Source: a virus. Taken from it: 37,230 nucleotides of DNA. Position numbers and translations under genes: made by a program. Shown here in pieces: positions 2,671 to 37,230 of this stretch. How positions within the stretch are numbered: position 1 is the stretch's first letter; the number at the start of each line of letters is the position of its first letter. Below the pieces are notes generated by a model. That model was given only the letters and a program-made list of their open reading frames with translations. It searched no databases and was not told the DNA's origin. The stretch lies in IMG/VR virus record IMGVR_UViG_3300022198_001296, positions 1 through 37,230 of that record. One strand, 5' to 3'.

Positions 2671-3338
2671 ACTTCTACGTCAGCATCTGCACCGACATGA
2701 ATGCCCTGCTTGCTACGGGACTGGTGTCTGAGGATTCCCCCTACAGGGGCATGATAGATGGCCGCTCAGGTGCCTACGTGTACCGCAACGGCAACCAGTC
2801 GATGATAGTCCTGACTGACATTGGTGGGCTTGAAGGGCTTGCAGAACTGCCCTTTGTGACTGTGACCTCATTCGAGGAGATATTCGGCTACCGTAGGCAG
2901 GCGGTGATTGATGATGTGCCGCAGTGGACGACTGAAACGGGTGTGACTCCAGGTTATTACCGTGATGTATCGACAGGCGAATACGTGGATGGTGACCCTA
3001 TCTACCGTGTTGAGCGTGTTGAGACACCGACGACTCGGACTATCACCGACGAAACCGGTAATACCACCGAAATAGCCGGTGATCCCATCGTGGAATACAT
3101 CACCACAGACGAGATTGAAGGCTACAAGCAGGTCGCAGTGACCGAACAAGTATGGGTAGAAGCTGAACCATACTCCAACACTGTACCTCTGTATGAGGAC
3201 GTGGACGCTGCTCCCGAAATGGGAGCTTTATACGCCTCGATATACGACAGAACACCCGTCACAGACGCTGAAGGGACTCACACGCCCCCCAAGCTGTTCG
3301 CAGTGCCAGGTGGGTACGATGTGAGCCATATCCGATAA
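2667..3338 (+). CDS. Hypothetical protein in tail fibre cluster
   Basis: A 223-residue soluble protein I do not recognise. It starts four bases inside the fibre gene (ATGA) and its stop overlaps the next start (TAATG), so it is translated in series with the fibre. The middle is rich in Thr, Val and Glu with alternating charged/hydrophobic residues (for example IVEYITTDEIEGYKQ), which suggests beta structure. No signal peptide or membrane segment is visible. Position directly after a fibre gene makes a fibre-associated or chaperone role possible, but this is inference only. Confidence 0.75.
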   Translation: MNFYVSICTDMNALLATGLVSEDSPYRGMIDGRSGAYVYRNGNQSMIVLTDIGGLEGLAELPFVTVTSFEEIFGYRRQAVIDDVPQWTTETGVTPGYYRDVSTGEYVDGDPIYRVERVETPTTRTITDETGNTTEIAGDPIVEYITTDEIEGYKQVAVTEQVWVEAEPYSNTVPLYEDVDAAPEMGALYASIYDRTPVTDAEGTHTPPKLFAVPGGYDVSHIR

Positions 3339-27939: not shown

Positions 27940-27993
27940 CCTGTACATTAAACGTCAATGTATATTACTAATATACACGTTAAATAGATGAAC

Positions 27994-28070
27994 GGGGCTG
28001 AAAAGGGTGTCGATTCTGGCTAAAACCCAACGGGAAGCAGAAGACGGTGGTTCGACTCCACCCAGCTCCA
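27994..28070 (+). ncRNA. tmRNA-like tRNA domain without tag region
   Basis: The ends match the tRNA-like domain of tmRNA. GGGGCTG (27994-28000) pairs with CAGCTCC (28063-28069) as a 7-bp acceptor with one G-U, followed by A. GGTGG-TTCGACT-CCACC (28046-28062) is a perfect T-arm. As in tmRNA there is no D-stem; the loop AAAAGGGTGTCGA resembles the tmRNA D-loop. TTCTG (28014-28018) pairs with CAGAA (28038-28042) in the place of helix P2, closing on a CCC-AAC-GGG hairpin. The whole is only 77 nt, so no mRNA-like part, tag ORF or pseudoknots. CCA is not encoded. It may be a processed RNA or an ssrA-derived attachment-site relic. Confidence 0.65.
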
Positions 28071-28128: not shown

Positions 28129-28560
28129 ATGCTGACTGACAAGCAGAAAGAGGCCGTAGCAGAGCGAAAAGAGATTAATCTCCGCAAGCGTAAGCGTGGC
28201 CGTCCTCCCAAGAAGGAGATTGCTGCTAAAAAGGCTGGTAACCGGAAGGAAGTAGGCCGCCCTAAAGGGGATGCCGCTATCATCAACGAGTACAAGGCTC
28301 GTATGTTGGCCTCTCCGAAGAGCAAGAAAGTCCTCCAGACCATACTAGATGCGGCTTTGGACGATGATCACAAGCACCAGGCTGCTGCATGGAAGCTTTG
28401 TATGGACAGATTGCTACCGATAGCGGCTTTTGAGAATGAAGTCAGCAAGGGAGCAGGCAAGAGCCAGATCCAGATCAACATATCCGGCGTAGGACAGGTA
28501 GATATTAGCGACCAACCTGATGACCAACCCCTAGAGGCAGAGTTCCATGAAGTTGACTGA
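28129..28560 (+). CDS. Terminase small subunit (putative)
   Basis: The 143-residue protein begins with a helical basic region and two AT-hook-like motifs (KRGRPPKKE and VGRPKGD), followed by a helical core (MLASPKSKKVLQTILDAALD, then AAWKLCMDRLLPIAAFE) typical of podovirus small terminase candidates. The acidic tail follows. It lies two genes before the large subunit. It should bind the packaging site; DNA contact by the AT-hooks is likely. Confidence 0.7.
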   Translation: MLTDKQKEAVAERKEINLRKRKRGRPPKKEIAAKKAGNRKEVGRPKGDAAIINEYKARMLASPKSKKVLQTILDAALDDDHKHQAAAWKLCMDRLLPIAAFENEVSKGAGKSQIQINISGVGQVDISDQPDDQPLEAEFHEVD

Positions 28561-33770: not shown

Positions 33771-34354
33771 AACCTTTAATTTTTGGGAATGTAAAACCTT
33801 CTCTGAATAACTGGGACGGCTTAACAGGTCTACCAGAGGGAACACGACAGACTAACACACGCAGTTCGGAGGCAATCCATGAAGCGTATCAGTTGGAAGT
33901 ATTTAGCAGGATTGATTGACGGCGAGGGCTGCATAGACGTTCAGGTAACAAATGGCGTTTATGTAAAACCAAGACTGAGAATTGGAATGGCAGATAACGC
34001 TATCGCCCTTCTCGGGATGCTACAAAACTCGCTTGGTGGGCACATGGACCACCGTGAATCTAAGAACGAAAACTGGCAGAGCAGCACCTGCCTATCCTGG
34101 GATGGCTACAAAAGAGCCTGCCCAGTTCTTAGAAACATCGTCAAGCATCTTCTCCTGAAGAGGGAGCAAGCCAGGTTTTGTCTTTGGATGGAGACAAACA
34201 TCAAGGGGCAGCAGGTCAGCACAGAAGTGCGGGACGCTATCCGAGACGAGCTTAAGCTAATGAAGCGTGACCCGCACAGACTAAGTGAGAAGGCGCAGGA
34301 GAGGATTCTTTCTCTGCTGTGATGCTATAGTCGGACGCCCCGAGATGGGCGTTG
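33771..34354 (+). ncRNA. Group I intron in the major capsid gene
   Basis: A 584-nt intron. P1: exon bases CATTCCT (33764-33770) pair with GGGAATG (33785-33791), with the conserved U-G at the splice site. P10: ATTTT before the guide can pair with GAAAT of exon 2. P7: GACTA (33850-33854) pairs with TAGTC (34328-34332). P9: ACGCCC (34335-34340) and GGGCGT (34347-34352) form a hairpin, and the intron ends in G at 34354. The P-Q-R-S-like core (AACTGGGACGGCTTAACAGG, CAGACTA, GCTATAGTC) is in order. The endonuclease gene sits between the P7 strands, in the P3/P8 region. Confidence 0.85.
33879..34322 (+). CDS. LAGLIDADG homing endonuclease (intron-encoded)
   Basis: The 147-residue protein has one LAGLIDADG motif, LAGLIDGEG at residues 9-17, so it should work as a dimer. 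YVKPRLRIGMAD and LLKREQARFCLWME follow the usual fold. GGAGG lies 6 bases before the ATG. Its TGA stop ends just before the P7 3' strand of the intron. It should cut intronless capsid genes and help the intron move. Confidence 0.9.
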   Translation: MKRISWKYLAGLIDGEGCIDVQVTNGVYVKPRLRIGMADNAIALLGMLQNSLGGHMDHRESKNENWQSSTCLSWDGYKRACPVLRNIVKHLLLKREQARFCLWMETNIKGQQVSTEVRDAIRDELKLMKRDPHRLSEKAQERILSLL

Positions 34355-35333: not shown

Positions 35334-37230
35334 TTGAGAACCGCCATAGTAAATTCTATCCGGCAAGGCATCCGCCAATCCATTCGGGGATCTGGTGAGC
35401 CTGTGCCCACGCTCGGACTACCGTTACAGAATTCTTTAGTATCCAACATTGCTAGCACCAGGGTAACCCCCACCTACACCCGCGCCACTACAGCCACAGT
35501 AGAGGACTACGAGGGCCGCATTATTGATGTGCCCTCTAACGCCGCCAGAATGCGTGGTGCGCGTTATGTGCAGAACCTGATTACTGCGTCTGAGGACATG
35601 ACTAATGCTGGTTTTATTGAGCAAAACGGTGGCTCGGTAACGGCGACAGAACTAACCACTGACGGGACTACTGATAGCGGTGTTTTTTGGACGCACACAA
35701 TAACTGATGATGGCTCTGGCGCTGGTGGCAGAACCTTTGTGTTTAGCGCGTCGATACGGCTGGTTAGCGGGACAATCAGCGCAAGCAGTTCACTGCAATT
35801 TAGGCTTCAGGGTAGCGCGGTTACACAGGCCACTGCCGGGATTGGATATGAGGTTTCGTCAACAGCAAAACGTTTTTCTGTGTCAGCATCCACCGATGCC
35901 TCTGGCACAACAGTAATTCCTAAAATTGATTGCGACGACGCAGTAACCCTAGAAATCACAAACTGGCAACTAGAAGAAGTCACAGGCCAGACGAACCAGA
36001 ACCCAGGCGAGTATGTTTCCACGGGTGTTGGGACTGGGGTGGAGCTTGTTACCAATGGTACGTTTGATAGCAATGTAGACAACTGGACAGACACGGGAGG
36101 CTCCCCGGCTACGTGGGTAGACGGAGCGATGAGCGTCCAGAAGCTGATTATGTTCAACAACGTCAAACAGGTTGGTTCTGACTTAAATGTTATAGGGAAG
36201 CAATACACCTTCTCTGTCGAGTTAATCTCTGGCAGCGTAAAAATGATCTTGTTTGCCGGAGCATCGACCGGGGGAACCAGATACGTTAATGAGGTTATCA
36301 ATACGCCCGGTGTTTACACGTGGACGTATACCGCCATCAGGACGAGTTACCTGATCTATTTTGAGAACAACAACGGATCGGGAGACTCCTACGTTGTTGA
36401 CAACATCTCAGTCAAAGAAGCAGACCACGGCCTCAACGTCGATGGCATCAAGGCCTTCACCACCCTCAACGGCAACACGGTATCTTCAGGCGTAGTCACA
36501 GAGGCCACTGGCCCGAGCATTGCACAGCAGCATGTGGAGCTGGATGGGGTATCGGGGACGTATGTATCGACCCCTGACAGTGCAGCGGCATCGGTTACGG
36601 GTGATATAACGCTGATTGCCAATGTTGCTCTTAACGACTGGACACCAAGCAGCGGCGAGGATGTTATTTCCAAGTGGCTCGGCACCGGAGATCAGCGCAG
36701 TTATTTGCTTCGAGTTATCAGCGGGAACCTGTATTTATTCACTTCATCTAGTGGCGCAGCAGGGACACAGGTCAGCAGCAACTCAACCGCAGCGGTCGGA
36801 TTTGCTGATGGGACGATGGGTTGGATTCGTGTCACTTGGGATGAATCTGCGGATACGGCTTACTTCTATACCTCTGACGACCCCATAGGCACACCTGTAG
36901 ATCAGGTCACATGGGTTCAGCTTGGCACATCTGTTAGTCATGTCTCATCCGGCATATTTGACGGCACCGCGAGCGTAAATGTCAGCGGTATCAACAACGG
37001 CGCAAGTTCAACTGTAAACGGCAAAATCTCCCGCGCCGTAGTCATAGCCTCGACAGACCCGACAGCCACGCCTGCTGTGGACTTTAACGCGAATGACTGG
37101 GAAGCCGGTAAGACCTGGGAATCCTCCACAGGTGAGGTATGGACACTCCAAGGCACCGCTAATGCCCGTGGGCCATTCTCTCGGTGGATTGAGCTTCCGG
37201 GGTCAAATGGTGATTACATTTCCACGCCAG
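35334..37230 (+). CDS. LamG/carbohydrate-binding tail fibre, 5' part (runs off window)
   Basis: The frame is open from a TTG at 35334 with AAGAGG 7 bases upstream to the last base. The N-terminus (RTAIVNSIRQGIRQSIRGSG) is probably the virion anchor. Then come a jelly-roll-like domain (IEQNGGSVTATELTTDG to ITNWQLEEVTGQ), an extra CBM-like domain (NGTFDSNVDNWTDTGG to VVDNISVKEAD, about 36040-36425) and a LamG module (VELDGVSGTYVSTPDSAAAS to GEVWTLQG). The stretch from about 35850 is a diverged copy of the fibre at 1-994, without the extra domain there. It is either the 5' half of that same gene in a circular genome or a second fibre. Confidence 0.8.
   Translation, partial: MRTAIVNSIRQGIRQSIRGSGEPVPTLGLPLQNSLVSNIASTRVTPTYTRATTATVEDYEGRIIDVPSNAARMRGARYVQNLITASEDMTNAGFIEQNGGSVTATELTTDGTTDSGVFWTHTITDDGSGAGGRTFVFSASIRLVSGTISASSSLQFRLQGSAVTQATAGIGYEVSSTAKRFSVSASTDASGTTVIPKIDCDDAVTLEITNWQLEEVTGQTNQNPGEYVSTGVGTGVELVTNGTFDSNVDNWTDTGGSPATWVDGAMSVQKLIMFNNVKQVGSDLNVIGKQYTFSVELISGSVKMILFAGASTGGTRYVNEVINTPGVYTWTYTAIRTSYLIYFENNNGSGDSYVVDNISVKEADHGLNVDGIKAFTTLNGNTVSSGVVTEATGPSIAQQHVELDGVSGTYVSTPDSAAASVTGDITLIANVALNDWTPSSGEDVISKWLGTGDQRSYLLRVISGNLYLFTSSSGAAGTQVSSNSTAAVGFADGTMGWIRVTWDESADTAYFYTSDDPIGTPVDQVTWVQLGTSVSHVSSGIFDGTASVNVSGINNGASSTVNGKISRAVVIASTDPTATPAVDFNANDWEAGKTWESSTGEVWTLQGTANARGPFSRWIELPGSNGDYISTP
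37027..37230 (+). repeat. 204-bp exact direct repeat, copy 2 (window end)
   Basis: Identical to 791-994 and in the same reading frame of a fibre gene. It ends exactly at the window edge, so the true length of the match is unknown. It is either the overlap of a circular assembly or a true second copy. Confidence 0.95.

Follow-up and report, generated by a model that had tools for sequence, protein, structure and literature searches.

Locus and architecture of the element

A 77-nt RNA gene lies on the plus strand of the window, which is the whole 37,230-base virus record that was analysed, and its sequence is GGGGCTGAAAAGGGTGTCGATTCTGGCTAAAACCCAACGGGAAGCAGAAGACGGTGGTTCGACTCCACCCAGCTCCA. The gene sits in a gap of ~600 bases without plausible genes, with leftward replication and recombination genes on one side and rightward packaging genes on the other. 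The rightward side presents a gene in the small-terminase position, followed by endolysin, large terminase, portal and capsid genes. The coordinates of the RNA, its parts and the adjacent gene are given in Table 1.

Table 1. Coordinates of the RNA gene, its structural parts and the neighbouring packaging gene in the window
Feature	Position	Strand	Basis or remark
TLD-only (tag-less) tmRNA-like RNA gene	27994..28070	+	RF00023 full-model match, held-out covariance model R1, fold
Acceptor stem, 5' strand GGGGCUG	27994..28000	+	pairs with 28063-28069, 7 bp; sequence
Stemless D-loop	28001..28013	+	position count from 5' end
P2 stem and closing hairpin	28014..28042	+	28014-28021 pairs with 28036-28042, one bulge; fold
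GAC	28043..28045	+	A28044 taken as equivalent of E. coli A334 (SmpB Trp122 pocket)
T-arm GGUGG UUCGACU CCACC	28046..28062	+	sequence
Acceptor 3' strand and discriminator A28070	28063..28070	+	sequence
143-aa gene in small-terminase position, first coding gene of packaging/late operon	28129..28560	+	ORF

The acceptor and T-arm of a tmRNA, with a P2 stem closed by a small hairpin and with no D-stem in the fold of these 77 nucleotides, had been described in a sequence-only reading, and both its coordinates and its fold were exact; the fold is that of a tmRNA tRNA-like domain (TLD). The G-U pair that it placed at position 3-70 is seen in the sequence as G27996·U28067 (G3·U70). The inner hairpin closing P2 consists of three base pairs (CCC-AAC-GGG, 28026-28034), and P2 with this hairpin stands in place of the mRNA-like region and the pseudoknots. 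On reading the sequence, the tag reading frame, the resume codon and the pseudoknots are absent; CCA is not encoded either, as the bases after A28070 are GCC. Within the D-loop, U28010, C28011 and G28012 fall where E. coli tmRNA has U17, C18 and G19, and position 15 is a U. These positions and that of A334 were assigned by counting against the E. coli sequence.

The promoter that had been placed 50 bp upstream proved to be weak. The candidate, TTGACA (27910) followed after 18 bases by TGTAAT, has no A at the key second position of its -10 box and is not picked up by a sigma-70 consensus scan. No terminator-like site was seen at the element. The window contains a single perfect palindrome of 19 nt, TGTATATTACTAATATACA, at 27959-27977, 16 nt upstream of the RNA, which may serve the RNA or the late operon as an operator. 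Elsewhere in the record, ORFs near both ends (678-920 and 36938-37156, minus strand) are identical over an N-terminal stretch; part of the tail-protein region is repeated there, and no exact terminal repeat of 20-399 bases was found.

Model scores, covariation and the viral family

Covariance models score both the sequence and the pairing of a candidate RNA. The Rfam tmRNA model RF00023 aligned to the window element from end to end (1-374) with 39 bits and an E-value of 6e-16, which falls under its curated gathering cut-off of 47 bits; a standard Rfam scan is silent on the element for this reason. Comparison with tmRNA and tRNA models, as the sequence-only reading had proposed, therefore bore it out in the alignment along the whole tmRNA model, with the Rfam tRNA model RF00005 at 26 bits (cut-off 29), and fell short in the tmRNA score itself. 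A second covariance model, R1, was built from 13 other elements with the window excluded; it returned 27994-28070 as its sole hit at 61.8 bits (E 2.6e-12), whereas ordinary tRNAs from tRNA-rich loci did not exceed about 39 bits. The geometry of the acceptor and T-arm occurred at one site in the window and in none of 200 random windows matched to it in dinucleotide statistics. A chance hairpin is rejected by this geometry, the model scores and the family described below, although the folding energy of the element alone is unremarkable (z -1.2). The TLD-only tmRNA-like gene at this locus is thus confirmed as real.

An unusual decoding tRNA, either of alanine type or intron-bearing, is a highly improbable description of the element. 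The 26 bits obtained with the tRNA model and the presence of some elements within phage tRNA clusters speak for it. Against it, that score is below the cut-off, position 8 is an A, the D-stem and a 7-nt anticodon loop are missing, ARAGORN made no call on the element, and ordinary tRNAs stay well under the family-model score reached here. An ordinary tRNA is rejected on the score, the missing D-stem and A8. The permuted two-piece tmRNA was also rejected: its model, RF04321, gave 9 bits (E 8.7), mainly in the T-arm, and the 5' acceptor comes first in the window element.

The family was collected by running short-TLD DNA patterns (GGGG..GA, T-arm and CTCC within about 110 nt) on viral contigs, which yielded 29 stretches and then at least 120. 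A filter for a full 7-bp acceptor and a 5-bp T-stem left at least 89 distinct sequences among the viral matches listed. Dropping near-duplicates, fragments of tRNAs and a handful of atypical forms left at least 65 divergent compact TLDs of about 58-90 nt, including those of the window and of contig L002, nearly all of them in virus contigs. The general pattern matched at least 119 stretches of bacterial and archaeal contigs; a single stretch survived the pairing filter, and it looks spurious. No credible compact TLD was present among the bacterial matches listed. The contrast between virus and bacterial contigs is strong among the matches listed, which are not a census. RF00023 matched end to end in all 50 of the element-bearing contigs tested, and 35 of these matches were over the cut-off. 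Such elements escape standard annotation, as the one in the window is missed by ARAGORN and some do not reach the Rfam cut-off.

Matches were also obtained in eight cultured Streptomyces phages (BRock, Alone3, LuckySocke, GiJojo, Tomas, Naboo, Riptide and pSt2308), the sequences having been inspected for BRock and Alone3 and the pSt2308 match spanning 69% of the query. They are unannotated except in GiJojo, where a hypothetical protein overlaps the match. This unannotated presence in cultured phages makes the family testable now. A blastn comparison of the window region with cultured phages gave short hits only, many of them to tRNA T-arms. Two contigs presented further peculiarities. L276 holds two elements, one at 1298-1373 and a very divergent TLD-like one at 3208-3288, which also has G3·U70. 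At 665-967 of L002, ARAGORN calls a 303-nt tmRNA with a tandem repeat (VPIMGLIVPIMGLI...) as its "tag", and the covariance models place a compact TLD at 890-964 instead; the ARAGORN call is likely an annotation artefact.

The pairing of the family was analysed in an alignment of 67 elements that was fitted to the structure, in which 96.3% of pair cells held standard pairs compared with 71.4% in shuffles, and the covariation score was 0.556 compared with 0.122 +/- 0.009. Across these 67 elements the acceptor (helix 1) was covarying and 100% paired, the T-arm (helix 5) was 99.4% paired, and every P2 pair changed on both sides. A swap of P2 strands between elements is the cleaner of the two tests, and P2 was not required when the elements were chosen. 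Cognate P2 strands paired better than swapped ones, with a summed score of 436 against 255 +/- 8.8 over 5,000 permutations, the highest of which reached 293.5. An inner motif, AAAnCC(4-5 nt)GGnA, recurs within P2 in many members.

Covariation also bears on whether the element could derive from the 3' end of a host ssrA, as a relic or a copy that served as a phage attachment site, as the sequence-only reading had suggested for a phage that had lost its integrase. The gene ssrA is a common integration target, and a partial ssrA-like 3' end does lie beside an integrase gene in Mycobacterium phage Milly (NC_026598.1, ~34159-34199; L476). The Milly sequence is probably an attP and stands in contrast to the TLD-only elements. 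Here both halves and P2 are conserved and covarying, which an attachment-site copy would not yield; the window record yielded no integrase, and PF00589 occurred in 2 of the 50 element-bearing contigs, in neither case adjacent to the element. The relic reading is disfavoured, and we regard it as improbable in the extreme.

Recognition features were assessed in a search free of the acceptor, in which only the D-loop and T-arm were fixed. It yielded 31 distinct sequences, one of them cut by the record end. All 30 complete elements had a 7-bp acceptor, G3·U70 and A73; acceptor pairs 4-6 varied among them, and CCA was encoded in 12. G3·U70 and A73 are the determinants for AlaRS (PMC3968760). In E. 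coli, G19 packs on SmpB, the G19C change abolishes trans-translation, and the pocket for SmpB Trp122 is formed by A15, U17 and A334 (PMC8363625). Within the 67-element set, which was selected without a D-loop constraint, the equivalents of G19, U17 and A334 were G in 63, U in 51 and A in 64 elements. The AlaRS and SmpB recognition features are thus conserved, and both charging and binding are predicted from them.

Comparison with known tmRNAs

The sequence-only reading had regarded a trimmed phage tmRNA as new, which is wrong as to the kind. Mycobacteriophage DS6A has a published TLD-only tmRNA (Mao et al. 2009, RNA Biol 6:355), as described in PMC4131195 and PMC11915505. The DS6A molecule resembles the window element in having little beyond the tRNA-like domain and no tag reading frame. 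It belongs to a different phage group, and the likeness is one of published description. According to PMC4131195, a DS6A-like molecule strongly inhibits tmRNA whether it is chargeable or not, perhaps through titration of SmpB; PMC11915505 adds that this was shown by expression in E. coli. The published inhibition concerns that DS6A-like molecule and not the window element.

Compared with standard tmRNA (ssrA, RF00023), the window element has in common the acceptor with G3·U70 and A73, P2, the T-arm with GAC before it, and a stemless D-loop with U17-C18-G19. E. coli tmRNA is longer by almost 290 nt, and the window element has none of the pseudoknots, resume codon, tag ORF or encoded CCA. The mRNA-like region has also been lost in CDS-less organellar tmRNAs, namely those of jakobid and other mitochondria and of Mallomonadaceae plastids (~65 bp). 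These belong to organellar lineages, and the mitochondrial ones coexist with imported SmpB (PMC11915505). Judging by the counts of each form in the tmRNA database given below, the mitochondrial forms appear permuted, whereas the window element has the standard order; many of the phage elements also differ from the organellar ones in having P2 closed by a small CCnnnGG hairpin. The Melnitz-type two-piece tmRNA (PMC9004378) and the tagged Streptomyces phage tmRNAs are likewise carried by phages, but keep a tagged mRNA-like part.

The 2025 tmRNA database holds 97,179 sequences, of which 79 are from phages; 72 entries are "permuted, no CDS" and only 9 are "standard, no CDS". In the literature searched, beyond whose reach most subscription journals and preprints lay, no account of a widespread TLD-only family was found. 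The TLD-only kind is therefore already known, from very few examples, and the window element adds to a kind that is barely described.

Proposed function and rival readings

Trans-translation is near-universal in bacteria and is an antibiotic target. The fold, the tmRNA relationship, the conserved AlaRS and SmpB features and the viral bias of the family are what can be read from sequence, and they support the core of the sequence-only reading, namely a tmRNA-like RNA with no tag domain that could in principle be charged with alanine and may compete with host tmRNA. We consider it reasonably probable that the element is a TLD chargeable with alanine, and that it binds SmpB and obstructs or redirects the trans-translation of the host. 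The 77-nt RNA would be transcribed at the start of the late/packaging operon or immediately before it, and host tRNA-processing enzymes would trim its 5' and 3' ends and add CCA. Host AlaRS would then charge it with alanine via G3·U70 and A73, and the charged RNA would bind SmpB and EF-Tu. Having no tag, it would compete with host tmRNA-SmpB for partners and stalled ribosomes, and trans-translation would be inhibited or diverted in late infection. No SmpB gene was found in the 50 element-bearing contigs; therefore, host SmpB would have to serve.

Several observations stand against an inhibitor. Titration of SmpB calls for an abundant decoy, and the match of the promoter to consensus is weak. 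In some phages a TLD-only RNA coexists with a full tmRNA; Streptomyces phage Riptide (PV654398.1), for instance, has an unannotated TLD-only-like match at 83298-83374 and a full tmRNA at 94862-95128, which encodes the tag ANSKFAFALAA. The element is also dispensable among close relatives of the window. Its nearest syntenic relatives are L183, with the near-copies L187 and L189, and also L002. L183 encodes a homologue of the small-terminase-position protein (72% identical), 49 nt after a shorter related RNA, and in L002 the equivalent site is occupied by an element that differs greatly. A similar element was found in none of 48 other close relatives. The element is thus an accessory gene, since only two other lineages among about 50 close relatives were found to have one.

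The strict retention of G3·U70 suggests that charging, and probably entry into the ribosome, matters, because SmpB titration alone needs no G3·U70. Simple titration may therefore be incomplete as an explanation, the published inhibition having needed no alanylation. The same strictness of alanine identity (30 of 30 for both G3·U70 and A73) favours the main rival to an inhibitor, a working tag-less rescuer. Here, Ala-TLD with SmpB and EF-Tu would enter stalled ribosomes and add one alanine, with release but no tagging. Such rescue would spare phage proteins degradation and would resemble the role proposed for CDS-less mitochondrial tmRNAs, whose coexistence with imported SmpB also speaks for it. 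With no mRNA-like segment, there would be no resume codon and no known release step, and the only experiment found described for such a molecule showed inhibition (PMC4131195). We judge rescue, and the sparing of phage proteins with it, to be rather unlikely.

The position of the element at the head of the packaging operon, where no terminator was seen, could also mark a site of RNA processing. Cuts by RNase P and RNase Z would define where the late mRNA begins at its 5' side, and the released RNA would be functionless. Many related elements start 3-13 nt after a same-strand stop codon, as in co-transcripts, which fits such a mark. It needs neither G3·U70 nor G19 and A334 nor a conserved P2, and an ordinary tRNA would suffice; processing as the sole role is thus quite improbable. 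Neighbourhoods differ widely across the family, and no recurrent partner gene was present among the PHROG families listed for the neighbours.

Beyond the window element, we give even chances to a broader proposition. The tag-less TLD RNAs would form a widespread, virus-biased family with its own P2 and AAAnCC...GGnA hairpin, kept alanine-chargeable and serving as charged, ribosome-entering decoys or as tag-less rescuers. They would represent a general phage strategy against trans-translation, of which DS6A is the tip. The literature searched yielded a single phage RNA with a described action against trans-translation. If the proposition is true, these phage RNAs of about 58-100 nt, tag-less but with the AlaRS and SmpB recognition features retained, would be natural inhibitors or re-routers of ribosome rescue.
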